Made by a program: the position numbers and the translations under genes. Of a stretch of DNA of 64,000 nt, positions 4,452-56,546 are shown in pieces. Position 1 is the first letter of the stretch. Each line of letters opens with the position of its first letter. The stretch comes from Lepidostoma basale (taxonomy: Eukaryota > Arthropoda > Insecta > Trichoptera > Lepidostomatidae), in the NCBI GenBank assembly GCA_022606425.2, contig JAHDVF020001364.1, forward strand, positions 992,001 to 1,056,000, in the 5' to 3' direction. The notes beneath the pieces were generated by a model. The model saw nothing but the letters and a program-made list of their open reading frames with translations, ran no database searches and was not told the DNA's origin.

Positions 4452-4557
4452 CTTTCTTGACCAACGTTTCGGAGACCGATGCAGTCTCCATCTTCATTAA
4501 GATCTCCCTAAAGATGAAGACTGCAACGATCTCAGAAAAAAAAGCCGAGTCCCCGGG
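4452..4557. ncRNA. Head-to-head hammerhead-like pair (GGAGAC family)
   Basis: On the minus strand (4452-4500) a TGAAGA box, stem GGAGAC with GTCTCC, GAAAC, and a GTTGGTC site occur in hammerhead order. On the plus strand (4501-4555) a decayed second copy reads AAAGATGAAGACTGCAACGA followed by a damaged GAAA box. Both resemble 14622-14672. They are likely remnants. Confidence 0.5.
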
Positions 4558-4589
4558 TTTTTTTAAGATAAAAAAAAAAACACTTTTTT

Positions 4590-5285
4590 TTTAATCTAAC
4601 AACAATGATTTAAATTAATGATATTAGAATTTCTTTTACATTCTTCAATATGAACAGAAAATACCTCATTATTATGAAGAAGGGAACTGGTCGTTTTCAG
4701 GCTCGAACCCAAGTCCCCTGGATCAGGAGCCAAGCTCCTAGACCAGAGGTCAGCAAAGTGCGGCTCTTTAACCTCTTAATTGCGGATCCGGCACAAATGT
4801 TAAAGGACGGGCGCGCAAGACGCGCCGATGGTATCGGCGGGTGACGACTGCGGGGTGCGCGGTGCGAGAGAGACTCTTCTCGCGGTTCAATAAGTCTGGT
4901 TGGCGTTGGATAGCAGTCAACTCACCAGTCGCTTTGATAAGGTCATGGTGGTCAGCGCTTGTCGTGTTTGCAAGTCGCGCACGTGTTACAAGGGTTTTTT
5001 TTTTCCATGATTTTTGAATAATATGTCTCATTATGGATTCCTTAATTATATATTATTTTTTTATCAATGAATAAAATGTTTATTATATATGATATCAAGT
5101 TTTATTCTGCGTAAGTACCTGTAATTTAAAAAAGTGCTGAAATTATAATAAATGTTTGCTAATCTAGAAGCTAATAAACAGAATTGTCTCTTATTTTTTT
5201 TAAATCGTTGTAATGTACATATTTGGCTCTTTGGCAAATAAGTTTGCCGACCTCTGTCCTAGACCACCACCCGATTACACATTGC
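4590..5285 (-). mobile_element. tRNA-like SINE S2, split by a hAT element
   Basis: On the minus strand an A-box-like GGTGGTCTAG start (at 5257-5275) continues at 4743 downward with a GCTTGGCTCC arm and the B box GGGTTCGAGCC. The body then matches 13905-14106 (GAAGAATGTAAAAGAAATTC). A hAT-type insertion at 4744-5256 separates the two pieces. Confidence 0.75.
4744..5256. mobile_element. Non-autonomous hAT element (MITE) with 8-bp TSD
   Basis: The ends CAGAGGTCAGCAAAGTGCGG and (reverse complement of the right end) CAGAGGTCGGCAAAC form terminal inverted repeats of the hAT CAGRGGTCGGCAAA type. TCCTAGAC is repeated exactly at 4736-4743 and 5257-5264. No transposase frame is present in the 513 bp. 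Removing the element and one repeat restores SINE S2. Confidence 0.9.
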
Positions 5286-5327
5286 TACCAACCGTGAAAA
5301 TCTACGCGTTTATTTAAATTATTTCGG

Positions 5328-5615
5328 TTAGATGGTTTGGACATATGGAACGAATGCATGAGAGTAGAATGGTCAAAAAGTTGTACACAAGCAGCGTGAG
5401 TGGAAAAAGAAGCCGAAAAAGCATGACATGACCAAATTAATCAATGACTAAAACGCGGCCACATTCAAAGTCGGAATTTTCAACGTGCGTGCATGGTACG
5501 ATGTATGAATGTAGAGGAATCCCGAGAGGTATGCTAGGACAGAGCATTGTGGCGATCCATCCTCTCTGCCTACCTCGAGGGCAAAATGGCGTGATGGTTA
5601 GTTAGTTAGTTTTAT
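5328..5615 (+). mobile_element. LA LINE 3' end with GTTA tail
   Basis: RWFGHMERMHESRMVKKLY is followed by degenerate copies of the later LA motifs and by GGCGTGATGGTTAGTTAGTT. Confidence 0.8.
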
Positions 5616-5617
5616 TT

Positions 5618-5960
5618 CGGTTAGAAAGTTTCCGGCCGCCACTGTACCGGCCGCCCAATGAAATAGCGCCGTTCGCCCACCTGTGACGTCACAGGATTTG
5701 CGGTCCCACGTTGGGTGCCCGGAGCGCCACTGCCGCGGTCCTCCCAGCCGCCATTGTGCCGCCCCAGATGTAATGCCGGTCCGACGGGAGGATGGCAAAC
5801 TTTCCCGAAACGTATTTACACTCGAGACCACTCGACGGATAAATCGGCCCCCGGATGGAGTATTTAACATCTTCCCCTGTAATTGATTGGCTCCGATGAC
5901 GTCCGGAAATATCCGGAAGCGGATATATCACCGAATTTGTAAGCGACCTATTTTTTTCTT
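5618..5960. other. CpG-rich island of unknown function
   Basis: GC- and CpG-rich sequence unlike its surroundings. It includes the palindromic CRE-like TGTGACGTCACA near 5681 and several GCCGCC and TCCGG motifs. No open frame here resembles a protein I know. It could be a regulatory element or promoter-proximal region of the Ig gene, but nothing proves this. Confidence 0.35.
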
Positions 5961-5994
5961 CTACGTGCCATGGTAAGCTATAAAAGATCTTGTA

Positions 5995-6650
5995 GGGATG
6001 GTCCTAACATAACCAAGTCTCTACTCATTTATTGTTTCTGGGTCATGTGATCTTCTTCTTCTTCTTTTTGTCCTGTCACACCTCCGTGGTACATAGGGCC
6101 TCAAGGAACCTTCTCCACCCGACTCTATCGCATGCCTGATGCCTAACATCATCCCAAGTGAGGCCTGCTGCCTTAACCACTTCTCCAGGTGGCTCTAGAT
6201 CTACCTCGCTTTCTCTTTCCCCCCATAGGGGACCAGTCTAGTGCACCCTGAGCGATGCAGGCTGGGTTCCGTCTCAGAGTGTGACCGATCTACTGCCATT
6301 TGCGTCTAGCGACTTGTTCTCTAATTGGATTTTCGCCTGCCATGGTCCAGAGGACGGCATTTGACACTGTTTGGGGCCAATAGATTTTAAATATTGAGCG
6401 AAGGCACCTATTTATATGGGTCATGTGATAAGGGGAGAAAAATACCACCTCCTTCGACTGATATTAATGGGTAAAGTGGAAGGACATCGGGGAGTTGATG
6501 GAAGGCAGCTGTCCTGGCTGAGGAACATCAAAGAGTGGACAGGAATAACAAGAGTTCGGAACCAGTTCCAAGTGGCGCAGGATAGAGATGCCTTTGATTG
6601 CCAACGTTGGGGGGAGCTGACACGGCACCGAAAGAAGAAGAAACAATGAT
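5995..6650 (+). mobile_element. LB LINE 3' end, split by an LD insertion
   Basis: LB motifs GHVIRGEKYHLLRLILMGKV and SWLRNIKEWTGITRV are present at 6416-6600, with the end GGCACCGAAAGAAGAAGAAA. The region before 6050 reads TTCTGGGTCATGTGA, the same codons, because the LD insertion duplicated them. Confidence 0.8.
6051..6417 (-). mobile_element. LD LINE 3' end inserted in LB, 11-bp TSD
   Basis: It begins with TCTTCTTCTTCTTC (reversed AAG tail) and TGTCCTGTCACACCTCCGTG, then runs to GCCATGGTCCAGAGGACGGC, the reverse of 46803-47135. GGGTCATGTGA occurs at 6040-6050 and 6418-6428 as a target-site duplication. Confidence 0.85.
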
Positions 6651-6699
6651 GTAAAACTCCATATTAAATAGTTAATACAAATGAAAACGTCGGTTTTTC

Positions 6700-7078
6700 A
6701 CTAACTAACTAACCATTACGCCGGTTCTCTGGAGGGGTAGGCAGAGAATATAAACCACCATACCGTTTTATCTTGACATACCTTTCTAGATTCCTCCACA
6801 TTTATACATCATAACATGCACACTCGTCGATTTTTCCGACTTCAAATGTGGCCACCTTTCAGAATTTCATTAATTTAGTCATGCCAAGCTTTCCATGATC
6901 TTCCACGGTTTCTATTTTCACTCGCATTGCTTGATTACAACATTTTAACCATTCTTCTCTCGACCATTCACTCCATATGTCCAAACCATCTCAGGGATCC
7001 TTTTTTTAATTTTACTTATGATACAATCATCTGCCTTACGTTTCTTCCTTATTTCAAATTTAAATAAAATATTATATT
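6700..7078 (-). mobile_element. LA LINE 3' end
   Basis: CACTAACTAACTAACCATTA is the reversed GTTA tail. Reversed LA motifs follow up to CCTTACGTTTCTTCC. Several indels are present. Confidence 0.75.
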
Positions 7079-7082
7079 CGTG

Positions 7083-7272
7083 TCAAACCGAGGAAAACAT
7101 GGATGACCAAATTAATCAAATTTTAAAGGTGGTCATGTTAGAAGTCGGAAGAATCGAAGTGCGTGTATGACTCGCTGTATGAATATCGAGGAATCTAGAG
7201 AGGTGTCAGGATAGAGTAGTGTGGCGGTCCATTCTCTCTGCCTACCCCTACGGGGAAACGGCGTGATGGTTT
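7083..7272 (+). mobile_element. LA LINE 3' end
   Basis: Short copy beginning within RGRPRKTW and ending CGGGGAAACGGCGTGATGGT, with no clean GTTA repeats. Confidence 0.75.
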
Positions 7273-7274
7273 AT

Positions 7275-7920
7275 TGTTGTTGTTATATTCAATTATAATA
7301 CAATTATTTTTTATAACTATAAGTTTTACTATAATTATTATCTTGAATTATCTAGTTTTATCTTACAGAAATAAGTGTAAATTCAAACATTGTTTTATAC
7401 TTTATCTGAAACATGTTGGACACTACACGCCCTTCATCCGTGCATTTTTTTTAACTATTCCAGATTTCCAATCCAAAGCAGTGATCATATCATTTTTTTG
7501 ATCACGATTATTTCACTATTTTGTTCACGATACTTTAATCCAATCTGACAACAATCGTTCTCCGGCTATCACGGTCTTCACGAAAGAGCGTCAAATGGAG
7601 AAATGATGTCCATCACACATTACCAACAGTTTAACTTTCTCTACCAGCCTTTCCCCTAAATCCCACCCCCGAAACACAATCGATACACCCCCCCATCAAT
7701 TACAGACTTCTAGGAGTTTAACCGGGGGTCGTGAAAATTACTACCCTGCGAATCCTATTGCCACATTCCGATCGACTATTGCGACCATAATTCTCCGCAA
7801 ACACCACTTCGGATGGCACTTTGTACAATTCCGACTAAGCGAGTGCACTGTGAATATAAAAACCAAATACGAGTCGTGAAATATAGTACAATCATGTAGG
7901 CTTGCAATATAATATATAAG
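7275..7920. other. No recognised feature; part moderately GC-rich
   Basis: The first 225 bp is AT-rich. About 7560-7860 is richer in GC, with C runs and CpG, without a convincing coding frame. It could be unique intronic sequence. Confidence 0.4.
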
Positions 7921-7921
7921 A

Positions 7922-8458
7922 AACTAACTAGCTAACTAACCATCACACCGTCTCCCGAATCGGTAGGCAGAAGGAAGGGACTGCCACACTTTACTTTCAT
8001 GACATATTTCACTCGCTTCCTTAACATTCATACATCGTGTCATGCACGCGCGTCGATTTCTCTGATTCCTCATATGGCCGACAAATAATATTTTATTTAT
8101 TTAATCGTGCCACGTTTTCCTCGGTATTCCTCTATTTCTGGTTCCATTTACATCGTTAACATATAATTTTTTTAACATTATTTCTTCATTCATTCTCTCC
8201 ATATGTCCAAACCATCTTAATGATCCTTTCATTATTTTGTTCATAACACCATCATTCGCACCGCATTCACTTCTTATATTGTCATTCGACACTCTATCAT
8301 ACACAGAGTATTCACATATTCGTCTAAGAGATCTCATTTCTACTGCATTTATTCTACTTACATCCATTCTTTGCCAGTTCCATGCTTCGCTTCCATACAT
8401 AAGGGTCGGTAGAAGAACACCATTGTACACTGCCAATCTAGCTTTTTTGGATAGGTTT
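7922..8458 (-). mobile_element. LA LINE 3' end with 111-codon open frame
   Basis: The frame at 8101-8436 encodes MAVYNGVLLPTLMYGSEAWN, then SLRRICEYSVYDRVSN, GSLRWFGHMERMNEE and PRKTWHD. The first stop falls after KTWHD; the remaining tail is decayed but ends with the reversed GTTA repeats. About 530 bp is a typical 5'-truncated length here. Confidence 0.85.
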
Positions 8459-8554
8459 TAAAAACCAAGTACGTGTCACAAAACACAGTAGCATCACACT
8501 CGATTACAATATAATATATGTATTGTTTATAATTAAATGTATGTATTGTAACAT

Positions 8555-10660: not shown

Positions 10661-10667
10661 AGAATTA

Positions 10668-10990: not shown

Positions 10991-11096
10991 ATTCCATACA
11001 TAAGGATTTTTTTGTATGTTCGCCATACTTTGTATTGTAGATGTTTTATTTGCCTTTTTCTTTTTTATGTGCTTTGTATATACAACAGTATTAAAA

Positions 11097-11146
11097 TTAC
11101 ATATCAGACATGTTTCGGACAACCAGTCCTTCTTCAGTGATACATA
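11097..11146 (-). ncRNA. Hammerhead-like ribozyme motif (GGAC family)
   Basis: On the minus strand: stem I strand ATGTATCA, box CTGAAGA, one A, stem II GGAC/GTCC with loop TGGTT, GAAAC, self-complementary ACATGT as stem III, site GTC, then TGATATGT, which pairs with the stem I strand (8 bp with two G-U). All hammerhead positions are in order, except for one extra base before stem II. Confidence 0.65.
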
Positions 11147-11231
11147 TTTAAAATATTATAAAAATGTTTACAAATATGATCAATTTTGGCAGACAACATC
11201 TGTCAAAATTGATTATATTTGTAAACAAGTT

Positions 11232-11637
11232 TATACTAACTAACTAACTATCACGCCGTCTCCCCGGAGGGGTAGGCAGAAATAAAGGAACGCCACACTG
11301 TTCTGTCCTGACATATATCTCTCGCCTCCTCCACATTCATACATCTTGTCATGCACGCACGTCAATTTCTCCGACTCCTCACGTGACCGACATTCAATTG
11401 ATTGATTTGATCGTGCTACGTTTTCCTCGGCCTTCCTCTATTTCTAGCTCCGTTCACTTCTTTACCATTCTGTCTTCACTCATTCTTTCCATGTGTCCAA
11501 ACCATCTTAATGACCCTTTCCTTATTTTGTTCATAACACGTTCATTCGCGCCACATTCACTTCTTATATTTGCATTTGTCACTCTGTCATATACAGACTT
11601 GTCACACATTCGTCTTAGAGATCTCATTTCTACTAAA
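11232..11637 (-). mobile_element. LA LINE 3' end
   Basis: Reversed tail CTATCACGCCGTCTCCCCGG; reversed motifs continue to GTCTTAGAGATCTCATTTCT. It separates the two arms of the ribozyme-like inverted element. Confidence 0.8.
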
Positions 11638-11670
11638 TAATTTTATAATATTTTAAATATGTATCTTTAT

Positions 11671-11722
11671 AATATGCATCACTGAAGAAGAACTGGTTGT
11701 CTGAAACATGTCTGATATGTAA
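11671..11722 (+). ncRNA. Hammerhead-like motif, decayed
   Basis: CTGAAGA, a weakened stem II (GAAC/GTCT), GAAAC, ATGTC and TGATATGT in order. Stem I has a two-base bulge relative to its partner at 11097. Confidence 0.5.
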
Positions 11723-11790
11723 TTTTAATAGTGTTGTATATACAAAGTGTATAAAAAAAGAAAAAGACAAAACATACGTAAGGGTTTGAA

Positions 11791-12400: not shown

Positions 12401-12550
12401 TTTTATTTTTTATTTTTCTCTTTATTTCCACTACTATTATTTTTAACTCTTAATTTTTTTTTTCGATTAGAAGCTTGGTGGTTGGACACATATAAAAATT
12501 ATAAACAGTTTTTTATATATTTGGTATAAAACCACTTCATTTTTGAGAAT

Positions 12551-12593
12551 GAGGGCTTACCGGTTTCGCTCCATGGGAGCTTCCTCAGGGTTT
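12551..12593 (-). ncRNA. Hammerhead-like motif (GCTC family)
   Basis: Minus strand: CTGAGGA, one A, stem II GCTC/GAGC with loop CCATG, GAAAC, self-complementary ACCGGT as stem III, site GTA. The flanks pair poorly in this copy. The fragment at 43717-43752 and the copy at 13015 suggest an original GCC/GGC stem I. Confidence 0.5.
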
Positions 12594-12639
12594 TATACAT
12601 ACTATAAAAATCAACTTAACCTACAGTCCCATCTTTAAT

Positions 12640-12960
12640 ACCCTTCCCCTCTACCCCTCTACACCTAATAGCTAATTACTAACATCCGCCTCTACCCCTC
12701 TACATCTAATAGCTAATTACTAACATCCGCCTCTCCCCCCCCTCTCTCTCCCCCCGCTCTCTCTCTCTCTCCCCCCGCTCACTCTCTCTCTCTCCCCCCG
12801 CTCTTTCTCTCTCTCCTCCCTCTCTCCCTCCGCATATCTCTCCCTCCCCTCTCTCTCTCTCTCTCTCTCCCCTCTCTCTCTCTCTCTCCCACCTCTCTCT
12901 CTCTCTCTCTCTCTCCCACTTCTCTCTCTCTCTCTCCCTCCCCCCTCTCTTTCTAAATTA
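12640..12960. repeat. CT-rich low-complexity tract
   Basis: Long runs of CTCTCT interspersed with CCCCC on the plus strand, preceded by two copies of a CCTCTACCCCTCTACA-type unit (about 12647-12735). Confidence 0.95.
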
Positions 12961-13014
12961 GCCGCCTTCCTTTAATGTAATTTGTATCACGATGTTCAAT
13001 TTTTAGTATGTATA

Positions 13015-13056
13015 GAGCTATGAGGAAGCTCGGATAGTGCGAAACCGGTAGGCCTG
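13015..13056 (+). ncRNA. Hammerhead-like motif (GCTC family), decayed
   Basis: ATGAGGA, one A, GCTC with GTGC, GAAAC, ACCGGT, site GTA and then GGCC. It is the mirror partner of 12551-12593; the first core base is mutated. Confidence 0.45.
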
Positions 13057-13254
13057 CCCTCATTCTCAAAAATAATGTGTTTGTATACCAAATACATAAA
13101 AATAAATGTTTAATTAATCTTAATTATTTTGTTTAGTCTCATTTTGTCTTAGTTTAACTTCAGTCTCGTTTCACAATGTTAATTATTATTTTATATTTGT
13201 GGTAGAATATAATTGGCTTACTTAATATAAAAAATATATATTTTCTCTCTTATA

Positions 13255-14615: not shown

Positions 14616-14621
14616 CCACAT

Positions 14622-14672
14622 TATCCTGAAAATGGAGATTGCAACGATCTCCGAAACGTCAGTCGAGAAGGA
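14622..14672 (+). ncRNA. Hammerhead-like motif (GGAGAT family)
   Basis: CTGAAAA, one T, stem II GGAGAT/ATCTCC around TGCAACG, GAAAC, a small stem III closed by GTCA, then GTC and GAGAAGG. The same family lies at 4452-4557, where stem II is GGAGAC/GTCTCC, a compensated change. Confidence 0.5.
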
Positions 14673-19559: not shown

Positions 19560-19670
19560 CACAAAAAATTAAAACAACATTTTAAAGATAATACACGTAT
19601 TGCAAAAATTATTAATGTATCCTCCGAAACATGTCGTGTTTTTTATTATTTTTTTAATAATAAGTGGATT
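19560..19670 (+). mobile_element. Ribozyme-bearing repeat fragment (GGAGG family)
   Basis: TATCCTCCGAAACATGTCGT, GTTTTTTATTA and GTGGATT match 19984-20045. Only the 3' half of the hammerhead-like motif (19617-19641) remains. Its GTC is followed by GTGT, which would pair with the ACAC that precedes CTGAAGA in the other copies. Confidence 0.5.
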
Positions 19671-19983: not shown

Positions 19984-20170
19984 ATTTTTACACCTGAAGA
20001 TGGAGGTATCCTCCGCAACATTTCGTGTTTTTTTAATATTTTGTGGATTAAACAAAGCTATTTTCAATTTTCTAAGTATATTACTATGGAATTTCAGTGT
20101 TAATGCCTTGGCGTTCAATAAGTTTAGTAGTAATAGATCCAGAATTTTTATTTGAATAGAAAGATAAAAT
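19984..20170 (+). mobile_element. Ribozyme-bearing repeat (GGAGG family)
   Basis: The hammerhead-like motif (19984-20029) has CTGAAGA, T, GGAGG/CCTCC with loop TAT, then mutated GCAAC and ATTTC. The following 130 bp (TGGATTAAACAAAGCTATTT, GTATATTACTATGGAATTTC, GCGTTCAATAAG) is the reverse complement of 35450-35560, so motif and flank form one repeat family. Confidence 0.6.
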
Positions 20171-22400: not shown

Positions 22401-22438
22401 GAATAAACTTTGTTTTTTGTATCACAATTGTATTTTAT

Positions 22439-22488
22439 TTCACGCGACAGCTGTTTCATCAACCAATGTTGACATCATCAGGTGTTAC
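22439..22488 (-). ncRNA. Hammerhead-like motif (GTCAAC family)
   Basis: Minus strand: AACAC, CTGATGA, one T, stem II GTCAAC/GTTGAT with loop ATTG, GAAAC, eight-base self-complementary ACAGCTGT as stem III, site GTC, then GCGTG. Stem I has one A-C mismatch that a CpG-decay mutation would explain. Confidence 0.65.
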
Positions 22489-22577
22489 AATAATATATCA
22501 AATGTCAAATTTACCACGTACAATCTAGCTAACAAAATAATAATACTACCTTCAACTTTTGTCACCTTTCATATTAA

Positions 22578-22682
22578 TGTAATCTTCTTCTTCTTCTTTT
22601 TGTCCTGTCACTCCTCCGTGGTGCATAGGGCCTCAAGGAACCTTCTCCACCCGACTCTATCGCAAGCCTGATGCCTAACATC
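22578..22682 (-). mobile_element. LD LINE tail fragment
   Basis: CTTCTTCTTCTTTTTGTCCT and ATAGGGCCTCAAGGAACCTT match 6055-6160. Confidence 0.85.
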
Positions 22683-22736
22683 GTTTTTGACTCTATACTA
22701 TGTGTAATTGAGGACCGTTTTCACAAAGCGAAATAT

Positions 22737-23205
22737 CTACGAAATATCTGGTCTGGAGGAACAAGCACATGCGTATCGACAGCAAGATCAGAATCTATAA
22801 AACATGCGTGCGACCTATCATGACGTACGCTGTAGAGACGCGGGCTGTCACTGTGCGAACCATGGGACTACTAAGAACATCGGAGATGAAGGTTCTAAGA
22901 TCAATTACTGGAAAAACCCTCCGAGATCGTGTCCGCAACGCAGACATAAGAAAAACCTGCGAAATAGAGGATATCGTTCAGTGGAGTAGATCCAGAAGAA
23001 GATGCTGGAGGGACCATGTAGCCCGAATGGATGGTGACAGACTCGCATATACAGCCGCTTATGAAATCCCCTCCGGACACCGTTCACCTGGAAGACCGCC
23101 TAAGAGACGGAGGGACAGCTGGATCTTATCATCCGACGAGATATGATTTCTGTGTCACAGATCGTCAGATCTATTAAAAGAAGAAGAAGAAGAAGAAGAA
23201 GAAAT
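22737..23205 (+). mobile_element. LE LINE 3' end with 125-codon open frame
   Basis: The frame at 22769-23146 reads RIYKTCVRPIMTYAVETRAV, RTSEMKVLRSITGKTLRDRV, CEIEDIVQWSRSRRRCWRDH and SPGRPPKRRRDSWILSSDEI, then stop and an (AAG)n tail at 23177-23203. This is the C-terminal part of an RTE-like LINE polyprotein. The preserved part is uninterrupted, so it is relatively young, but 5'-truncated. Confidence 0.92.
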
Positions 23206-23654
23206 ATCTACGTAATGTAAATTTTTCAGGAGAAGGTTTTTTTCATGTTAAAAATAATATGTTTTGTATGAAATCGCGATATTTGAACCGCTACAACTTC
23301 GCACATATACCGTTTTATTAAAATTTTATTTCACCAATCGATAGAGCTCACATGGAAGAACCCATTTCCATAATAAACTTTTTTTTTGCAGAAATTTCAC
23401 TCTGTGAAAACGGTTCTCAATTGTTCCTTCTACTTACTGTTTTATTATTATTATTATTATTTTATTATATTTTCCACCTTTAATATTTTCTCCTATAAAT
23501 AATAACTAAGCGTTCTTTTAATTAAACTATTTAGGTACCTAACTCAATTACAGCAAGAGCTTCAAAATTATATCAAAGCAATTATTCAAATTGTCATAGG
23601 AACAAATACACATTAAGATTCCAAAAATCACGAAAATTTGACATTTGATATATT

Positions 23655-23708
23655 ATTGTAACACCTGATGATGTCAACATTGGTTGATGAAACAGCTGTC
23701 GCATAAAA
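23655..23708 (+). ncRNA. Hammerhead-like motif (GTCAAC family), mirror copy
   Basis: Identical core to 22439-22488 in the opposite orientation: CTGATGA, GTCAAC/GTTGAT, GAAAC, ACAGCTGT, GTC. After GTC it has GCATA instead of GCGTG, a CpG-decay change. Confidence 0.62.
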
Positions 23709-23734
23709 TGAAATACAATGTGAAAGGTATGTCA

Positions 23735-27889: not shown

Positions 27890-28110
27890 GTGAAAGTAGT
27901 GAAAAAAAAACGTCGTTTTATTTGTCTTTTTTTATATATATACTTTGTATATATTATACAACACTATTAAAATTACACATCAGACATGTTTCGGACGACC
28001 AGTCTTTCTTCAGTGATACATATTATAAAGATACATATTTAAAATATTATAAAATTGTATGCAAATATGATCAGTTTAGACAGATGTTTTAAAGATTTAT
28101 TTTGGAACGT
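27890..28110 (-). mobile_element. Ribozyme-bearing repeat arm (GGAC family)
   Basis: TTTGTATATATTATACAACA and AATTACACATCAGACATGTT match the arms at 11010 and 49505. The hammerhead-like motif is at 27974-28025: CTGAAGA, stem GAC/GTC, GAAAC, ACATGT, GTC, with stem I ATGTATCA/TGATGTGT mostly retained through G-U pairs. Confidence 0.55.
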
Positions 28111-29611: not shown

Positions 29612-29655
29612 TGCGAATGACACGTTTCGCCCTTCTAAGGCATTATCAAATGTGA
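29612..29655 (-). ncRNA. Hammerhead-like motif, decayed (TTGATAA family)
   Basis: Minus strand: TTGATAA, T, stem GCCTT/AGGGC, GAAAC, ACGTGT, GTC, ATTCGC. The core differs from CTGANGA at two positions shared with 25546 and 56504. Confidence 0.4.
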
Positions 29656-29926
29656 CGAAACTTCAACTCGTTGCAGTTTATATTTATACACTAGTAAATG
29701 GAGCAGAATATGGTAATTAACAAAAATTGATGTGACTTTATACATTTTTAACAAATAATTATTTGGGTAGGTCCATAAATATTGGAAAGTGTTTCTTGGA
29801 ACTCGTTAAAAAATTCTATGACAATGATTACATGGTTAGGATACTGAATGATATTATAAAAATCAAAAATAACTTAAATAGTCCATTGTTTTGGCCGAAA
29901 CACTATGATACCATAACATTTTAAAA

Positions 29927-30092
29927 CTGTTAAATTAAATAACTTTGTTTTTGTATCACAATTGAATTTTATTTTACGCGACAGCTGTTTCTTCAATTAA
30001 GACAGAATGGTAAACATAGGTCGATGAAACAGCTGTCGCGTGAAATAAAGTACAATTGTGATACAAAAACAAAGTTATTTAATTTAACAGTT
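29927..30092. repeat. Near-perfect 65-bp inverted repeat with paired GAAAC..GTC motifs
   Basis: Left arm AATAACTTTGTTTTTGTATC to CGCGACAGCTGTTTC; right arm GAAACAGCTGTCGCG to GATACAAAAACAAAGTTATT. These are the 3' halves of the GTCAAC-family motif in inverted orientation with a 27-bp centre. The CTGATGA boxes are mutated away. Confidence 0.8.
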
Positions 30093-30214
30093 TCAAAAAT
30101 AAGTTATTTGAGGTAGTACGAAATAGTGTTTCTAATAAAAAACATCTTCTTACAAATTGTTTACAAATGATTTTACATACGAGTATTTCAGGGTGACTAA
30201 TGATTCTACTAACT

Positions 30215-35439: not shown

Positions 35440-35625
35440 ACAATTGAATTGAAGATATTTTAACTTATTGAACGCTAAGGCACTGTGAAATCCCATAGTA
35501 ATATATTTAGGAAATTAAAAAAAACGTTGTTTAATCCACTAATTATTAAAAAAAATATTTAAAAACATGACATGTTTCGGAGGATACCTCCATCTTCAGG
35601 TGTAAAAATATAATAAAAACTAAAC
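35440..35625 (-). mobile_element. Ribozyme-bearing repeat (GGAGG family)
   Basis: 35450-35560 mirrors 20040-20160. The hammerhead-like motif at 35562-35612 (minus) has ACAC, CTGAAGA, T, stem II GGAGG/CCTCC with loop TAT, GAAAC, ACATGT, GTC, then ATGT. Stem I ACAC/GTGT is broken only by one CpG-type change. Confidence 0.62.
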
Positions 35626-37175: not shown

Positions 37176-38185
37176 TATTTATTTTTTATTAATTATCGCT
37201 TGATGATACATCAATACTTAAGAAACGATTGGTTGAAGGATACAAGCGTAATTCCGGCCGTTCTACTTTCATCTTTTGACCCAAGAAATGTATTTTCCCT
37301 TCAATACTTTATTACAATCATTACGCCAGAAACTTTCGCCGTTTCCATCTGGATGGCCAGGCCTATGTACAATATCATATAACACAGCACATAAAAACAT
37401 TTCATCACTTGATTTAACATCTAAAAAATATATATTTATTGTAGTTTTATATATTGGAGTTATACCAAGAGAAATCATGATTTCTCACTCAATTATCTCA
37501 GAAATAAAGTAATTCTCATCTCATTTATTGGTTAATCGATGTATGATTAATTGTATAGAATTCCATAATTATCTTATTAAAATAAACATAAGTTGTTTAA
37601 AAAATAGAAAATAAAAATTCTATAAATGATAAGAAAATTCTATTATGATATGAAGCATTATAACTACCTGTAAACTCATTCAAATTTTTGTTTTCTCTTA
37701 TTTCAAATATAATATTTTTCAACTGAATTATTGTTTCGTGGAAAAAAAAATTCGTCATTATATTTTTCAAATTCTAAGAATCCTGTTAAAAAAAGAGTCA
37801 GCCAATCACTGTCCACAGAAATACCCAGAAATTAAACTAACAATGCAACTATAATTGTAAACCACTTCCAAAAATAATCTGTGTAGAAGTGGGGGGGACA
37901 TACCCCAAAGTCTATATAAGTAACACATTATATTTAAGCCTGCACACTCGAAGATGTCCTCATAAGACGAAACACGTGTCGTGAATATTTCATATCATTT
38001 ATAGAATTTTTAGTTCCTTATTTTTAAAAAACTTTTGTTTAATTTAATAACATCATTTATTGGTTTTTGAACAATGGACTAAAACTCATATCAAACAATT
38101 AATACGAATGAAAACGTGGGTTTTATACTAGTTTTATGACATGTTTCACCTGTCTGAGGCATTCCGTTTCCTCTTTCTTCAAATA
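37176..38185. other. AT-rich sequence with one decayed hammerhead-like motif
   Basis: At 37941-37986 (plus) CACAC, TCGAAGA, T, stem GTC/GAC, GAAAC, eight-base self-complementary ACACGTGT, GTC and GTG are in hammerhead order. The rest has no recognised feature. Confidence 0.4.
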
Positions 38186-38860: not shown

Positions 38861-39262
38861 AAACTAACTAACCATCATGCCGTCTCCCCGAAGGCGTAGG
38901 CAGAAAGAATGGACTGCCACACTTTTCTTTCCTGACATATTTGTCTCGCTTCCTCAACATTCATACATCGTGTCATGCATGCGCGTCGATTTCTCTGACT
39001 CCTCACATGGCCGACATTTAATATTTGATTTATTTGATCGTGCCACGTTTTCCTCTGTCTTCCTCTATTTCTGGTTCCATTTACATCGTTAACATATAAT
39101 TTTTTTACCATTCTTTCTTCATTCATTCTTTCCAAATGTCCAAACCATCTAAATGATCCTTTCATTATTATGTTCATAACACCATCATTCGCACCGCATT
39201 CACTTCTTATATTTTCATTCGACACTCTATCATACACAGAGTATCCACACATCCGTCTAAGA
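38861..39262 (-). mobile_element. LA LINE 3' end with intact 125-codon C-terminus
   Basis: Frame 38875-39252 reads MCGYSVYDRVSNENIRSECG, GSFRWFGHLERMNEERMVKK, RGRQRKTWHDQINQILNVGH, RRACMTRCMNVEEARQICQE and VWQSILSAYAFGETA. No stop or frameshift in the preserved part, so a young, strongly truncated copy. Confidence 0.92.
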
Positions 39263-39546: not shown

Positions 39547-39945
39547 GTTTTAAATAAATAAAATGAAAGATTTTCAAATTCCCCCGGTTTTACGGAGATG
39601 TAATCCAAGAATCGATAGCGTTTGACCTTTAAAGGGAATGTGAAATAAACACGAAAATTGGAAAAATATAACAGAGTTGCTTTCGCCCGCGATATAAATA
39701 TATTTCACCGAGCTATTTCAATGGGTAACGAATGGAAAAACGAACAAAAAATCATCGTGCCACAGAACAGCCGCGAAACATTTACGTTCGACGTGTTTCG
39801 CCTTACAAGGGCATCATCAAAAAGTTAACAATTTTTATTTATTTTTAACGATGTAAAACTCCATATAAGTGTATTTATTGTTTCTTCAACAATCATATAC
39901 CAAAAATCAACATATTAATTAATTAATACACATGCAAAACTTTTT
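39547..39945. other. Unique segment with one hammerhead-like scrap
   Basis: 39785-39826 (minus) carries TTGATGA, T, stem GCC/GGC, GAAAC, self-complementary ACGT, GTC, GAACGT; stem I is weak. The rest has no recognised feature. Confidence 0.4.
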
Positions 39946-43640: not shown

Positions 43641-43716
43641 GAATGTGGCAATAGGAAAAGATAGTTTCTAAATATTCGTTTGAAGCATTCACTTTGTGGT
43701 AAGACACTTTAATTTT

Positions 43717-43752
43717 TATTTTCGCTTGTACCCAAGCTTCCTCAGGGCTTCG
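43717..43752 (-). ncRNA. Hammerhead-like motif fragment (GCTT family)
   Basis: GAAGCC, CTGAGGA, A, stem II GCTT/AAGC with loop GGGTAC, GAAA, then truncated. Compared with GCTC/GAGC at 12551, both strands of stem II changed together. The preceding GCC would pair with the GGC after the site at 13045. Confidence 0.5.
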
Positions 43753-43759
43753 TAATAAC

Positions 43760-47744: not shown

Positions 47745-48042
47745 ATTGAAATCCATCCAATGGTTTGGACATATGGAAAGAATGAATGAAGAAAGAATGG
47801 TAAAAAAATTATATGTTTACGATGTAAATGGAACCAGAAATAGAGGAAGACCGAGGAAAACGTGGCACGATCAAATACATCAAATATTGAATGTCGGCCA
47901 TGTGAGGAGTCAGAGAAATCGACGCGCGTGCATGATACGATGTATGAATGTTGAGGAAGCGAGAGCAATATGTCAGGAAAGAAAATTGTGGCAGTCTATT
48001 CTTTCTGCCTACCCCTTCGGGGAGACAGCGTGATGGTTAGTT
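47745..48042 (+). mobile_element. LA LINE 3' end with intact 95-codon C-terminus
   Basis: QWFGHMERMNEERMVKKLYV, RGRPRKTWHDQIHQILNVGH, RRACMIRCMNVEEARAICQE, LWQSILSAYPFGETA, then GATGGTTAGTTGG. Confidence 0.9.
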
Positions 48043-48044
48043 GG

Positions 48045-48482
48045 TTCGTCCAAGAGACTTATTTTCCACAACATTTTTTTCATTCCACTTCCTTTAGGAA
48101 GTTCCGTTCGACACTTCCGTAAATAAGGGATTTTTAGCCATTTCCTCATGGCAATTTTTGATCTCGTGCAGTCAAAGGTTCAGCGCTTATCGGACCTCGG
48201 GGGAATGGTAAAAGCTAAAACTGAAAACTAGAACCTGCTCACCCGGTGCGGGGGTACGTGTACTACTTCCGGCGTATTTCCGGTATTGTAAACGGAAGTA
48301 CCCCACCCCCAAGGAAATGCATTTTCAATTTCCCGGAACAAACTTTCAGACAGAACCCGAAATCGAGTTGTTCCTGAGTTTTTATTGGACCGTGATTGCT
48401 AGTTTAAAAGGCAATATGCTGCACGGAAAAGGGCGGGCGGTGAAGAAAATGCGGCGTAAACATGTTGAGCATATTTGTAAAA
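48045..48482. other. Unique GC-richer segment
   Basis: CCGGTGCGGGGGTACGTGTA, CTTCCGGCGTATTTCCGG and similar; no frame recognised. Another candidate non-coding element. Confidence 0.3.
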
Positions 48483-49090: not shown

Positions 49091-49104
49091 ATTTTTTTAA
49101 TTTT

Positions 49105-49475: not shown

Positions 49476-49608
49476 TTATTAAATATAATGATGCGTTTGA
49501 AATAACTACTTTTGTTTCTTCTATGTTCGCCATACTTTGTATTGTAGGTGTTTTATTTTATTTTTATATATTAGTATACAACACTTACACAAAAAAAAAA
49601 TTGAGTTA

Positions 49609-49655
49609 AATATCAGACATGTTTCGGACAACTCGGTCCTTCCTCAGTGATATTA
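49609..49655 (-). ncRNA. Hammerhead-like motif (GGAC family)
   Basis: AATATCA, CTGAGGA, A, stem II GGAC/GTCC around CGAGTT, GAAAC, ACATGT, GTC, TGATATT. Stem I is a perfect 7-bp match. Among the most complete copies. Confidence 0.65.
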
Positions 49656-49778
49656 TAAAGATATCTTAAATTTTATAAAATTTATCTATTTTTTTTTAAT
49701 ATATTTTGTATCACTTACATTAAAGAATTCTGGCAGATCATGTAAACAATTTTATAATATATTTATTATGTATATTTA

Positions 49779-49822
49779 TAATATGATTCACTGAAGAAGG
49801 ACTGGTTGTCCGAAACATGTAA
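49779..49822 (+). ncRNA. Hammerhead-like motif, site deleted
   Basis: CTGAAGA, A, GGAC/GTCC around TGGTT, GAAAC, ATGT, then a deletion that removes the C of the site and the 3' strand of stem I. Confidence 0.5.
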
Positions 49823-49925
49823 TTTTAATGTATTATAATTTTAATTATTTTAATGTAAGTGTTGTGTATACAAAGTATATAAAAAAGAAAAAGAGAAATT
49901 TTATAATATTTTTAATATCTTTATA

Positions 49926-49978
49926 ATACGAGTATCATTGAGGAAGGACCGGGTTGTCCGAAATATGTCTGATATTTA
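49926..49978 (+). ncRNA. Hammerhead-like motif, mutated core
   Basis: GTATCA, TTGAGGA, A, GGAC/GTCC, GAAAT, ATGTC, TGATATT. Two core changes. Confidence 0.48.
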
Positions 49979-50045
49979 AATTTATTTTATTTTATTAAGT
50001 GTTGTAATAAAAGTATATAAAAAATAAATTTAACTATTATACTTT

Positions 50046-50500: not shown

Positions 50501-50504
50501 TAGG

Positions 50505-50965
50505 ACAGGGTTTTCCAACCTCATTTGTACTATGCCCCAATTCAATGATTAAAAAAATCTCCACGCCCCCCAACCAATTTTTTATTTACCTATCAAATTC
50601 TGAAAAATAAAAAATAATCCAATCTTAATAGATGGCGCTAGTGTAGATTGAACTAAAAAAATGTGATGTGTGGTGTTACATTGTAGCATATATATATCTT
50701 CCAAAAAATTGTCAGACATGGTGGTCGTAAGAAGGGCGGAATGGATAATGTTGTATTAGGTACATAAAGCGTGCGCTTAACCCAACCAATGACAGGTCAT
50801 AAGTCCTGTAAACGCCTCGACCATCATACTCTGTTTCCAATTTGCATCTTCGTCTCTATTGAGATACAATTAATCCTTAAAATGATAACCCGCAATGGAT
50901 AAAATCCAGTATTTGTCTAGTATTTGTATACATTCAAAATGCTAAAAAATGAATTGCTTTAAATA
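50505..50965 (+). repeat. R1 interspersed repeat (possible hAT-type end)
   Basis: Begins ACAGGGTTTTCCAACCTCAT, which resembles hAT ends of the CAGGGGTTCCCAACC type. Its body (GATGGCGCTAGTGTAGATTG, GTCATAAGTCCTGTAAACGC, CTCTATTGAGATACAATTAA) recurs inverted at 56660-56925 and in part at 57300-57415. Confidence 0.6.
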
Positions 50966-50984
50966 AAAAATGTACATAAATAAT

Positions 50985-51250
50985 ATAAACTATTTTTTTC
51001 TTCTATGCATGTTCGCCATACTTTGTGTTGTAGATGTTTTATATAATATTTTTTTTTCTTTATCTGTCAAAACTTTAGTATTTTATAATAATAACTACAA
51101 AACTGTACATATTTGTAAACAATTTTATAATTTTAAATATCTTTATAATATCACTGATGAAAGACTGGGTTGTACGAAACATGTCTGATATTTAATTTAA
51201 TTTTTATTAAAGTTAGTGTTGTACACAAAGTATATAAAAAAGAAAATGAA
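50985..51250 (+). mobile_element. Ribozyme-bearing repeat (GGAC family)
   Basis: TGTTCGCCATACTTTGTGTT starts the arm; the motif lies at 51145-51195; AAAGTATATAAAAAAGAAAA ends it. Confidence 0.55.
51145..51195 (+). ncRNA. Hammerhead-like motif with canonical CTGATGA core
   Basis: AATATCA, CTGATGA, then AAGACTGGGTTGTAC (stem II weak, GAC/GT with mismatch), GAAAC, ACATGT, GTC, TGATATT. Stem I is 7 bp and perfect; the core is canonical; stem II is mutated. Confidence 0.6.
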
Positions 51251-52008: not shown

Positions 52009-52009
52009 A

Positions 52010-52600: not shown

Positions 52601-52930
52601 ATAATGTGCCCAAAGTATTCCAGTTTCCTAGGCCTTATGGTCTTTACAGTTCTGACTGTAGTACTCGCGTTTCCAACTCTGTCTCTTAGGCTTATTCCTA
52701 ACATGGCTCTTTCCGTGGCTCTTTGGGTCACTCGTAATTTATCGGCACTTTTTTTGGACAATGTAACAGTTTCAAGACCATAAGTCTTAACTGGCAGAAC
52801 GCAGGCTTCATAGACTTTCCGTTTCAGGTTGATCGGTATTTTCGGTTTTTTAGGATGTAACTTATGTTGCTGCTCAGCTGCCCAGTTTAGTCCAATTTAG
52901 TGACGAAAATATTTGTTAAAGATGAAAATG
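52601..52930 (-). mobile_element. LC LINE internal region
   Basis: RVTQRATERAMLGISLRDRV, GNASTTVRTVKTIRPRKLEY and FGHIMRND in one frame (52516-52761), then LC codons up to CAGTTTAGTCCAATTTAGTG. It adjoins the LE copy directly. Confidence 0.75.
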
Positions 52931-52939
52931 GAAAAATAA

Positions 52940-53520
52940 ATATGAGAAGACCGAAGAATATTTTACGTATACCCTGGACGGCAAGAAGAACAAATCAGTC
53001 AATCATAGACTTGCTAGGTATCAGGGCAATACTCTTGCGGATGTGTTCTCGGATAGTGTGAAAATATTTTGGACACATAGCCAGGAGAGATCAGGACAAC
53101 CTTGAAAAGCTCATCATCATGGGCAAAGTGGAGGGAAGGCGACCAGATGGATGACCACCGAGCCGCTAGAACTATCAAATCAGGGCGATGACTGGTCTCT
53201 CATTAGCTGCAGCGTGGAGACAGGAGCGCATGGAGTGCCATGGTCAATGGTTTACATCAGGGGTTTCCAAACTATGGCCCGCGGGCCAAATCCGGCCCGC
53301 CAGTGTCATCAATCCGGCCCGCGACAGCTAATGACCAGTGTCATCAATCAGGCCCGTGACAGCTAATGGCTTATTGTTGTTGTGATAAGTACTCGGTGAA
53401 TAGTCTAGAAATTATAAATAATGGCAGGAAAAATAAAATGTAGGAGTAATCAGTATGACCCTAGTTTTGGATGGACATGACCCTCAATCATGAGAAATAC
53501 GATTGAGGAGAAGAATTATA
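52940..53520 (+). mobile_element. LI LINE remnant, split by a hAT fragment
   Basis: TACCCTGGACGGCAAGAAGA (PWTARRTNQSI), GGACACATAGCCAGGAGAGA (FGHIARRD), GAAAAGCTCATCATCATGGG; resumes at about 53485 with CCCTCAATCATGAGAAATAC. Same order as 1380-1720. Confidence 0.72.
53258..53480. mobile_element. hAT-type element end or MITE
   Basis: CAGGGGTTTCCAAACTATGG, then GCCCGCGGGCCAAATCCGGC, is the classical terminal sequence of hAT elements of this kind. A tandem duplication of the CAGTGTCATCAATC..GGCCCG..GACAGCTAATG unit follows. The other end and TSD were not found. It lies within LI relative to the copy at 1680. Confidence 0.7.
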
Positions 53521-53619
53521 TATTAAAAAAATATATTTATATTGCTTATCTTTCATCCATATTCTGCCAATTCCAAGCTCACTTCAATACACCTGTACAA
53601 GGAGTATTGCGTTGAGTTG

Positions 53620-53935
53620 GTATGAAATAATTCGTCGTAACGAGGTGAGAGTGCCCGCGCCCATCCAGGCCCGAACTCGAACATAATTAATCACCCGGGC
53701 ACAAAAACAAAGGGCCGAACTGGGGAAAGAATGCCGGGAAGCTGACGTGTCAAGTTTCCGGCCAGATTTTCGCTTAGTCGGTAGGAAGCAGGACGGAAGA
53801 ATTTTCCATTTTCAAAAATCGCTGGCTCGTGAATTGCCAGAGTAAACAGCCTTAAGCAACTTTGCGTCGGGGCTCGATTCGGCCGTATCGACTTATCAAT
53901 CCGAAATTACTTCACCCCTTATATTTGAAAAATGC
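53620..53935. other. Unique GC-richer segment
   Basis: GAGTGCCCGCGCCCATCCAG, GACGTGTCAAGTTTCCGGCC and GCGTCGGGGCTCGATTCGGC. No frame recognised; candidate non-coding element. Confidence 0.3.
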
Positions 53936-54039
53936 TGATTGCACAAAAAAAATTTAAGAAATTTAAAAATATTCGCTGTGAACCTGTTTTCAGAGCCTTT
54001 TAACTTCTTAAAAATACATGTTTACGATTTAAACGTAAT

Positions 54040-54140
54040 AAAAAAATAAAGGAACACCCAGAAAAATGTGGCACGATGAAATCTATCAAATATTAAATTT
54101 TGCCCAGTCAAAATCTATCAAATATTAAAAACCCAGACAA
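54040..54140 (+). mobile_element. LA LINE fragment
   Basis: AAAATGTGGCACGATGAAAT and CTATCAAATATTAAATTTTG, the second phrase duplicated. Confidence 0.6.
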
Positions 54141-54174
54141 TTTTCTTATAAGATATAAACTACAGTAAAATATA

Positions 54175-54445
54175 CGAAAAATTTCTAATGATAGCAGGAA
54201 AGACTCTTCGAGATAAGGTGAGGAACACAGCTATTAGCGAAATCTGCAAGGTGATGTCGTGAGATGGGGCAGACAACGCAGAAGACTGCAGAGAATGGAT
54301 CCCACCAGAATCCCACACGTTGTGGCGCATCAGATTCCTACCGGCTACCGTCCCACCGGAAGACCACCAAAGAGATGGAGGGATAGCTGGGAGTCGACCT
54401 CCCAAGAGAGGCCAGCCTGATTACAGGAACATACCTAATGTCTAA
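54175..54445 (+). mobile_element. LE LINE 3' end
   Basis: MIAGKTLRDKVRNTAISEIC, WGRQRRRLQRMDPTRIPHV, HRKTTKEMEG/ KTTKEM-type shifted reading of RPPKRWRDSWES, and GAGGCCAGCCTGATTACAGG. Nearest relative is the minus copy at 55630. Confidence 0.82.
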
Positions 54446-54449
54446 AAGA

Positions 54450-54675
54450 ATAAGATATGTGGCTCCATTGCCGAATGCTCAGAATTCCTTGGACAGACAT
54501 GGTTACCAATACCGAAGTCCTGAGGCAAGCTAGAGTTGACAGGGAACTGTTATCAACTATCTAGGTTCGGAAAATTTTACATCTGGGTCATATACGAGTA
54601 CTGCGTGGGGAAAAGTACCACCTTCTCCAACTGATATTGGAGGAGAAAGTTGAGGAACGCCGAGGGCCCGTTAAC
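54450..54675 (+). mobile_element. LB LINE fragment
   Basis: TGTGGCTCCATTGCCGAATG, TTGGACAGACATGGTTACCA, GGTCATATACGAGTACTGCG and GGGAACGCCGAGGGCC-like codons. Confidence 0.8.
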
Positions 54676-54734
54676 ACTGTGGAATTCCATAATGACGATT
54701 TTTATGAATAAAACACTGTTATTTCCACTATTCG

Positions 54735-55085
54735 GTTTATTTCTCGGGTCGGGACGACACTGTGCGAACTAAGGGTCTGCTAAGAACATCTGAGATGAAG
54801 GTCCTAAGATCAATTACTGGAAAAACTCTCCCAGATCGTGTCCGCAACGCATACATAAGAAAAACTTGCTAAATAGAGGACATTGTTCAGTGAGTAGATC
54901 CAGAAGAAGACACTGGAGGGACCATGTAGCCAGAATGGATAGTAACAGAATCGCTATAAAGCCACTTATGAAATCCCCTCCGGACACCGCCAACTTGCAA
55001 GACCGCCTAAGAGATGGAGGGACAGCTGGACCTCATCATTCCACTAGACGTGGTTTTTGTATCACAAATTGTCAGATCAATTCAA
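54735..55085 (+). mobile_element. LE LINE 3' end
   Basis: RTKGLLRTSEMKVLRSITGK, TLPDRVRNAYIRKTC then stop, RSRRRHWRDHVARMDSNRIA, KSPPDTANLQDRLRDGGTAG. Close relative of 22737-23205. Confidence 0.88.
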
Positions 55086-55104
55086 AACAAGAATAAGATT
55101 TTAT

Positions 55105-55154
55105 TTTTTCGACATGTTTCAAAGGTTTTACACCTTCATTATCGGGAGAACGAT
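55105..55154 (-). ncRNA. Hammerhead-like motif (GAAGG family), decayed partner
   Basis: Minus strand: TTCTC, CCGATAA, T, stem GAAGG/CCTTT, GAAAC, ACATGT, GTC, GAAAA. Slightly more mutated than its mirror copy. Confidence 0.5.
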
Positions 55155-55165
55155 ATAAATGTTTC

Positions 55166-55219
55166 TATCGTTCTCCCGATGATGAAGGTGTAAAGCCTTC
55201 GAAACATGTCGAGAAGAAT
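55166..55219 (+). ncRNA. Hammerhead-like motif (GAAGG family)
   Basis: TTCTC, CCGATGA (one change from CTGATGA), T, stem II GAAGG/CCTTC around TGTAAAG, GAAAC, ACATGT, GTC, GAGAA. Stem I TTCTC/GAGAA is perfect. It forms a head-to-head palindrome with 55105-55154. Confidence 0.58.
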
Positions 55220-55510
55220 AAACTCAAAAGTGTTTTAATTCAAAAAATCGAAATTATTATACAAAATTGAGAGTATCTCTCTGTTACTTTGAAGACTCTT
55301 TATTCTGTGTCCGTCAAAGGATTATTTTGGGTAATTTATTGACGTCGTAAAATGGGTACGCAGTAAATACTTTAATAAAGTTTTTTTATTATGTTAGGCA
55401 GGTGAGCATATGAAGATTTATTTGAGATAGTTTAAAGATATGTTAGAAGAGACAAATAAAAAAAGATCCTTGGAGAGGTAAATGATCGGCGTGAGTTTTA
55501 GAGATAAAAT
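55220..55510. other. No recognised feature
   Basis: AT-rich spacer. Confidence 0.4.
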
Positions 55511-55514
55511 ATAA

Positions 55515-55585
55515 AAAGAAGAATAGCACACATCCGTCTATGCAATCGCATTTCAACAGCATTTATTTTACTTTCATCTTTAAAG
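55515..55585 (-). mobile_element. LA LINE fragment
   Basis: GCACACATCCGTCTATGCAA and TATTTTACTTTCATCTTTAA. Confidence 0.55.
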
Positions 55586-55629
55586 AAAAATATCTACTAA
55601 ACTATGTGAATACGAATAGAGATGTGAAT

Positions 55630-56120
55630 TATTTCTTGTTCTTCTTCTTCTTCTCCTTATAGACGTTTAGTCTGTTCCTGAAATCAGGCTGGCCTCTCTT
55701 GGAAGGTTGACTCCCAGCTATCTCTCCATCTCTTCGGCAGTCTTCCGGGGGGACGGCAGCTGGCAGGAATCTGATGCCCCACATCGTGTGGGATTCTGGT
55801 GGAATCCATCCTCTGCGCGTGCGCATACCAGTATCTTCTGCGTTGTCTGTCCCATCTCACGACATCCTCGACCTTGCAGATCTCGCGGATAGCCGTGTTC
55901 CTCACCCTGTCTCGAATAGTCCTTCCTGCTATCATCCTCAGCATCCTCATCTCTGCCACCCGTAGTTTAGCCTTCGCTCTTGTGGTATCCGCTACGGTCT
56001 CAATGGTATATGTCAGTATAGGCCTTACGCAAGTTTTATATATTCTGACCTTACTGTCAGTTCTCATATACTTGTTTTTCCATATTATATCCTTGAGACA
56101 ACCTGATACCACCGAAGCCT
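55630..56120 (-). mobile_element. LE LINE 3' end with 142-codon frame
   Basis: Frame 55684-56112: IWKNKYMRTDSKVRIYKTCV, RPILTYTIETVADTTRAKAK, RVAEMRMLRMIAGRTIRDRV, CKVEDVVRWDRQRRRYWYAH, RPPGRLPKRWRDSWESTFQE. Intact over the preserved part; reversed AAG tail at 55640. Confidence 0.92.
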
Positions 56121-56249
56121 AATTGATTTGTCCCTTTGTTTCAGTGACAAGATCATTTTGACTGAGCAGATCCACTAATTAATTAATACAATAATAATAA
56201 TAATAATAATCCACAATTAATTAATATGAACAAAACCCAAGCAGCAAGA

Positions 56250-56335
56250 GACTACCAGGAAGACCGCCAAAAAAATAAAGAGATGGCTGGACATCATCAT
56301 TCCAGGACAACTCACCGTCACAAACAGGTCATACG
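56250..56335 (+). mobile_element. LE LINE fragment
   Basis: CCAGGAAGACCGCCAAAAAA, GAGATGGCTGGACATCATCA and TCCAGGACAACTCACCG. Confidence 0.65.
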
Positions 56336-56503
56336 ACCTAACGACCGAAAATTTTACATAAAATTCGTTAATTGATTCCAAGATGTGCTTTGCAGTATTT
56401 TTCAACTTTCGCCTCGTTACTATTATAAACGATTTCAATTGCCTTAATTACCTATTCTGTTACATTAACTCGGTTATATAAACGATGACGCACTTGATTC
56501 TCG

Positions 56504-56546
56504 CCACATTTGATAATGTCTTAGAGAGACGAAACTTGTCATTCAA
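56504..56546 (+). ncRNA. Hammerhead-like motif (TTGATAA family)
   Basis: CACAT, TTGATAA, T, stem II GTCT/AGAC around TAGAG, GAAAC, TTGTC, ATTCA. Compared with GCCT/AGGC at 25546 both stem strands changed together. Core substitutions predict inactivity. Confidence 0.42.

Follow-up and report, generated by a model that had tools for sequence, protein, structure and literature searches.

Hammerhead-like motifs with one inserted core base at the ends of probable Penelope-like insertions, mostly inverted pairs, in Lepidostoma basale

Penelope-like elements are described as carrying dispersed minimal type I hammerheads that nearly lack helix III and are thought to cleave as dimers (summary accounts in PMC6155905 and PMC7761336), and the role of these hammerheads is called unknown in the available part of the review PMC7761336. 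At the level of these summary descriptions, the near-lack of helix III is shared with a set of motifs in the trichopteran Lepidostoma basale that we analyse here. They are found in a stretch of 64 kb (contig JAHDVF020001364.1, positions 992,001 to 1,056,000; hereafter the window) within an assembly of 768.8 Mb in 1572 contigs, and had been pointed out in an earlier note, made from the letters alone, as probable remnants of Penelope-like elements. As a joint reading we consider it probable that these sites are the conserved ends (pseudo-long terminal repeat or pLTR, hammerhead and tail) of short, probably non-autonomous Penelope-like retroelements that are mostly present as head-to-head inverted dimers, and that their RNA carries a minimal type I hammerhead in which a single base (A or T) is inserted between CTGANGA and stem II, GAAA follows, and stem III lacks a loop.

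One of the closest described systems is Poseidon PAc from Anolis carolinensis, a member of the Penelope/Poseidon clade, which has its hammerhead at the start of the open reading frame (ORF) and the cut site 26 nt after the ATG. Its reverse transcription starts 111-118 nt into the ORF, both DNA strands are cut and extended in vitro, and the hammerhead cleaves only with the protein present, insertion being independent of cleavage (PMC11167929). The corresponding distances are similar here, with the cut site at 25-30 nt from A9 and the tails of one family (family B) ending at about +115 to +126. Moreover, the ATG of PAc is located after G8 of the hammerhead, which suggests that PAc may well share the same extra base, with the spacing CTGATG-ATG, as far as the wording of PMC11167929 indicates. 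PAc is autonomous and encodes a reverse transcriptase and an endonuclease, whereas no coding part was seen in the repeats described here. A second likeness is provided by Penelope copies of Adineta vaga, for which the available part of PMC3846280, where hammerheads are not mentioned, describes head-to-head inverted pLTRs, an optional tail, palindromic junctions, solo pLTRs and unrelated DNA captured between pLTRs. The inverted head-to-head order and the optional tail recur at our sites; the target duplications of 8-10 bp given there for some copies have no clear counterpart. Since the data on PAc and Adineta fit, the repeats are read as short non-autonomous Penelope-type insertions. By description, they are also like the numerous short non-autonomous Penelope elements of heliconiine butterflies (PMC6685494, in part; hammerheads are not mentioned there), and Penelope elements have been reported in Lepidoptera (PMC9026859, in part). 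A literature search that combined Penelope, hammerhead and Lepidoptera returned no report, which does not imply that such reports are absent.

The motif was established independently of its stem II. When both strands were searched for GAA followed by a perfect palindrome (AC-NN-GT or AC-NNNN-GT) and H, with stem II pairing playing no part in the selection, the window yielded 19 anchors against a mean of 2.3 and a maximum of 8 in 60 second-order Markov sequences, which bears out the tiny self-complementary stem III of the earlier note. In ten of these, a stem II of 4 bp or longer stops immediately 5' of GAAA (mean 0.35, maximum 3 in the same Markov sequences), and nine combine such a stem with a CTGANGA box, at most two mismatches allowed, 0-2 nt upstream (mean 0.03, maximum 1). 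The gap between box and stem II is exactly one base in all nine.

The same spacing emerged from scans for strict sites, defined as GANGA, 1 nt, a stem II of at least 4 bp and GAAA, and repeated with 0, 2 and 3 nt. At spacings of 0, 1, 2 and 3 nt the window holds 0, 11, 1 and 0 sites (means over 40 shuffles: 0.4, 0.5, 0.7 and 0.4), and an independent sample of 260 kb from the same genome, made up of 21 stretches along contig C1 (210 kb) and the starts of contigs C2-C6 (50 kb), holds 0, 21, 7 and 1 (means over 12 shuffles: 1.4, 2.3, 1.6 and 2.1). Sampled loci are given below by their L numbers. The box is a complete CTGANGA in 15 of the 21 strict sample sites, and a scan limited to complete boxes gave 0, 15, 0 and 0; many further copies are altered. 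One of the 21 (L142 9276) is chance-like and another three or four have incomplete boxes; four of the seven two-nt matches come from a single unrelated repeat. As the extra base, the sample sites have T in 15 cases, A in 5 and C in 1, and the window sites have A in 6 and T in 5. No strict site in window or sample has A9 directly at stem II, as the hammerhead definition has it. Thus, the extra base after A9, which the earlier note had treated as a reason to doubt activity, is a constant feature of the motif and not a sign of decay. The density of strict sites is about 1 per 6 kb in the window and about 1 per 12 kb in the sample. Variants of minimal type I hammerheads are reportedly the subject of Lunse et al. 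2017; the hammerhead of chrysanthemum chlorotic mottle viroid, said to be that of De la Pena and Flores 2001, reportedly comes from a viroid and has long stems and no retroelement, unlike the sites here. The Rfam hammerhead models had no match at the gathering score in the whole window, none at E <=10 within window positions 46-58 kb and, for 7 of 26 loci in the sample, none at E <=3.

In all, 26 sites were listed in the window, 11 of them strict, the others having a broken box, stem or GAAA and being assigned by family likeness (Table 1); the 'about two dozen' sites of the earlier note are therefore reached only when degenerate copies are counted. All stem II pairs named there are present (GGAGG/CCTCC, GGAC/GTCC, GTCAAC/GTTGAT, GAAGG/CCTTC, GCTC/GAGC, GCTT/AAGC, GGAGAY/RTCTCC and GTCT/AGAC), and the claim that stem II covaries was upheld both between families and within family B. 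Five families have clear cores; in the comparison between them all 20 of the 20 stem II positions are paired, a result that only the true order among the 120 permutations of the arms gives. As the arms had been read off as paired stretches, this test asks only whether they can be interchanged between families. Two alignments were made, one of 18 sites and one of 10 of the 26 listed sites (families A, C and D only, 49783 omitted), and in the latter 86.4% of the stem II cells pair, against 69.4% after shuffling and at most 43.6% when the arms are slid. For family B, 17 of 21 candidate rows were aligned, comprising 16 distinct sequences. The rows omitted were L130 4729 (core the same as that of 6250), window 29991 (without its box and stem II), and L146 5680 and window 23873, which by eye do not belong to the family. 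The family B stem II variants include GTCAAC/GTTGAT, GCCAAC/GTTGGC and GGTAAC/GTTACC, and the covariation score of 0.246 (vs 0.144) was matched in none of 500 shuffles. Altogether, the RNA fold is real and shows signs of selection.

A covariance model built from the alignment of 10 sites recovered sites that had not been used for training, namely one more of family A, G 55168, F 39783 and a site at 38130 that is assigned to no family, the last three with E values of 0.0016 to 0.012. Family E and the second family G copy were matched only at E >1, and at E up to 5 the model did not recover family B in the window. Because stem III is self-complementary and has no loop, two RNA copies would have to come together to form all three stems of the core. 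The dimer of the 49609 core is predicted to form a complete hammerhead with a stem III of 6 bp; it is one of six dimers folded, and for the other five the predicted structure is not exactly the complete dimeric hammerhead. As judged by eye, families A, C and G have a good stem I, a part of the common plan in the earlier note. For family B a distant stem I was considered, formed by an upstream TTGTAACAC with GTGATACAA in the tail, and dropped because the pairing, by eye, is good in some copies and not in others.

The link to Penelope-like elements proposed in the earlier note is supported, and its strongest evidence, which that note had not used, lies in the inverted pairing and the tails. When relatives within 1.5 kb were counted for the 32 strict sites of window and sample, an inverted relative was found on the 5' side of 24 (about 18 separate places, as both members of one pair are scored as two sites) and on the 3' side of only 3. 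Two pairs in the sample look recent. Outside an AT repeat, L130 4753/6226 has two identical arms of about 185 bp, between which lies a LINE-like (long interspersed element) open frame, and L131 8775-8981 is an almost perfect palindrome. These pairs suggest that insertion is recent in this genome although the copies in the window are old, so that the term 'remnants' of the earlier note fits the window copies and not the L130 pair. Candidate target duplications, matches of 9, 11 and 13 bp that may be due to chance, were seen at three of eight places examined. In the family D pair, a CT-rich microsatellite (12698-12981) lies between the arms.

A small hairpin of the form TTGT..ATAC.AAA occurs 14 times in the window, nine times within 110 nt on the 3' side of a listed site; families A, B, D and G are represented. 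In family B, the longest tails terminate in CAAAACAATGGAYTAT, of which 13 occurrences were found in 324 kb: seven begin 96-107 nt downstream of a GAAAC of B type (degenerate in one case), or +115 to +126 when measured from A9 in family B, one begins 117 nt after a family C core (L143), two lie at 247 and 249 nt from a core, and three have no core within 260 nt. More specifically, L143 2286-2443 consists of a family C hammerhead followed by the family B-type tail end GGCCAAAACAATGGACTAT, and thus tails are common to families with unlike stem II. By eye, an optional tail past the pLTR, a Penelope-like trait, is present together with this conserved tail end. The arms of several pairs end at different points of the tail (11099/11674, 49609/49930, 51146 with its inverted fragment, and L135), and others end alike (29991/30026, L130 and L131), again as judged by eye. 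At L130 7573 (-) a family B tail is broken by an apparent tRNA-derived SINE (short interspersed element), and L130, L132 and L135 contain tRNA matches that exceed the gathering score.

How such pairs probably arise can be outlined along the lines of the known systems. AT-rich DNA would be cut by a Penelope-type enzyme acting in trans, a reverse transcriptase that carries a GIY-YIG endonuclease, and reverse transcription would begin inside the tail from both broken strands. Such two-sided priming would yield two 5'-truncated copies that face apart with their tail ends outermost, and each inverted pair would represent one insertion event. Cleavage by the hammerhead would be dimeric or protein-assisted. 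Several observations weigh against the reading as Penelope-like ends. No motif of a Penelope reverse transcriptase or of GIY-YIG was found by motif patterns in 274 kb. No clear target duplication was present at the other five of the eight places. The tail hairpin accompanies only 9 of the 26 listed sites, from which it was also defined, and the count of 24 contains both members of single pairs. By eye stem I is weak or absent in families B and D, and among the five measures of covariation in family B two are unexceptional, being reached in 60 and 77 of 500 shuffles.

Among the alternatives, the one that survives best, possible although doubtful, is that the fold has been retained as a signal by which the reverse transcriptase/endonuclease of the element binds or primes, without cleavage in life, and that the hammerhead likeness is ancestral. 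In vitro, hammerhead mutants of PAc insert as well as the unmutated element, and RNA-seq revealed no reads that end at its cut site, whereas cleavage of PAc does occur when the protein is present (PMC11167929). Within our set, changed core bases in many copies favour a non-cleaving signal; the family B alignment argues for the opposite, as G8 and A9 are nearly invariant and the stem II letters variable, with GAAAC invariant in 17 rows, an invariance that is not independent since the rows were picked by GAAAC-like anchors.

It is unlikely that the repeats are animal retrozymes, i.e. tandem units that form circular RNA via hammerhead cleavage and are moved by Penelope enzymes. Metazoan non-LTR retrozymes resemble them in being small non-coding repeats with type I hammerheads, for which mobilisation by Penelope-type enzymes has been proposed (PMC7229834, in part), and besides small size there is one 148-nt tandem at 49783-49977 and a tandem relative on one or both sides of 9 of the 32 strict sites (10 scores). 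However, inverted order predominates here and stem III has no loop, whereas published invertebrate retrozymes, according to the available parts of PMC7229834 and PMC7761336, form tandem arrays of 170-400 nt units and usually have a stable helix III.

Slightly less likely still are MITE-like (miniature inverted-repeat transposable element) DNA elements whose long terminal inverted repeats incidentally hold a hairpin. The palindrome in L131 and the lack of a Penelope protein in the motif search of 274 kb would suit such elements, but a hammerhead-type core with compensatory stem changes is unexpected in a terminal inverted repeat, the arms of several pairs stop, by eye, at different tail points, tandem copies are present and there is no fixed target duplication. 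Finally, chance hairpins in AT-rich DNA, for which one could cite a very relaxed hammerhead scan of the window without excess (12 matches vs 5-18 in 8 shuffles) and a box-GAAACATGTC pattern in viral contigs (at least 121 matches, with at least 10 stems of at least 4 bp among the matches listed and no preferred spacing), are in effect refuted by the strict scans of the window and the independent 260 kb, which are clearly above shuffles only at 1-nt spacing.

Table 1. Hammerhead-like sites, tail features and inverted pairs, in window positions; capital letters denote families.
Feature	Position	Strand	Remark
Inverted pair, A, head-to-head	11048..11772		
Inverted pair, D, head-to-head	12491..13125		
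Inverted pair, B, head-to-head	22421..23724		
Inverted pair, A	49549..50035		right arm a tandem of two
Inverted pair, G	55054..55267		
A core	11099..11145	-	intact box, stem II GGAC/GTCC, stem III ACATGT, GTC
A core	11674..11720	+	decayed stem II (GAAC/GTCT)
A core	27975..28021	-	1 mismatch in stem II
A core	49609..49655	-	intact; dimer of two copies predicted to give hammerhead fold
A core	49783..49829	+	stem I missing on 3' side
A core	49930..49977	+	same orientation, 148 nt downstream of 49783 core
A core	51146..51193	+	decayed stem II; inverted tail-only fragment near 51005-51070
B core	22438..22489	-	stem II GTCAAC/GTTGAT, stem III ACAGCTGT
B core	23657..23708	+	stems as in 22438..22489
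B inverted pair	29897..30132		boxes lost, tails retained; GAAAC at 29991 (-) and 30026 (+)
Tail end word CAAAACAATGGACT	29880-29893	-	adjoins B pair
C core	35562..35607	-	stem II GGAGG/CCTCC
C core	19986..20031	+	GCAA replaces GAAA; additional partial copy at 19589-19643
D core	12550..12596	-	stem II GCTCC/GGAGC, stem III ACCGGT, GTA, no clear stem I
D core	13012..13058	+	degenerate
D-like core	43702..43753	-	stem II GCTTG/CAAGC, stem III lost
E	37939..37988	+	degenerate box, stem II GTC/GAC, stem III ACACGTGT; inverted tail 37567-37641
F	39783..39830	-	degenerate; covariance-model match 18.5 bits
F	29612..29660	-	degenerate, stem II GCCT/GGGC
F	56505..56546	+	degenerate, stem II GTCT/AGAC
G	55168..55218	+	box CCGATGA, stem II GAAGG/CCTTC, stem I TTCTC/GAGAA; model match 20.7 bits, absent from model-building set
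G	55103..55153	-	inverted partner of 55168 site
H	4452..4505	-	box ATGAAGA, stem II GGAGACTG/CGGTCTCC
H, second copy	14618..14672	+	degenerate box

The window is rich in dispersed repeats, many of which are LINE-like by eye. LINE-like debris (e.g. 8191-8459, 38862-39148, 47760-48046 and 60750-61018) makes up repeat families, direct and inverted, that reach 18 copies and have the 3' part GGTAGGCAGA in common, followed by TTAG/CTAA tails. A Pfam search of 10 of the 95 open frames, which resemble LINE pieces by eye, gave only one weak RVT_1 match below the cut-off (E 0.0068; a 303-aa frame at 62298-63206, -). Further RVT_1 matches, of whichever clade, are present in the genome. The peptide 'HIRLRDLIST' upstream of two sites was rejected as part of the element, being antisense LINE-like sequence by eye. 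Another repeat, ATCTCAATAGAGACGAAGATG..., CCCACCGTGGGTTA, was noticed by eye at window 50840-50920 and in L121 after 8522; it forms a long inverted repeat in L121 and is the source of most two-nt matches in the sample.

Returning to the Penelope-like ends, we are most likely dealing with a known kind of mobile element, in which the fixed extra core base and the very regular inverted pairing are noteworthy. We tentatively put forward the further idea, which at present we hold to be the less probable one, that this is a hammerhead lineage with an obligatory unpaired base after A9 across families that differ in every stem, that it may be active only as a dimer or with a retroelement protein, and that priming at the two ends of a broken DNA may be its way of spreading, the standard product being an inverted dimer without a coding part. 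The high density of the motif, the presence of several families and of young copies, and the natural compensatory changes provide a ready comparative set for the core letters that are kept, the stems that are dispensable and the ends of the insertions. The fixed extra base constitutes a precise and cheap prediction, and the head-to-head insertions allow the two-sided priming that was seen with the lizard protein to be tested on genomic copies.

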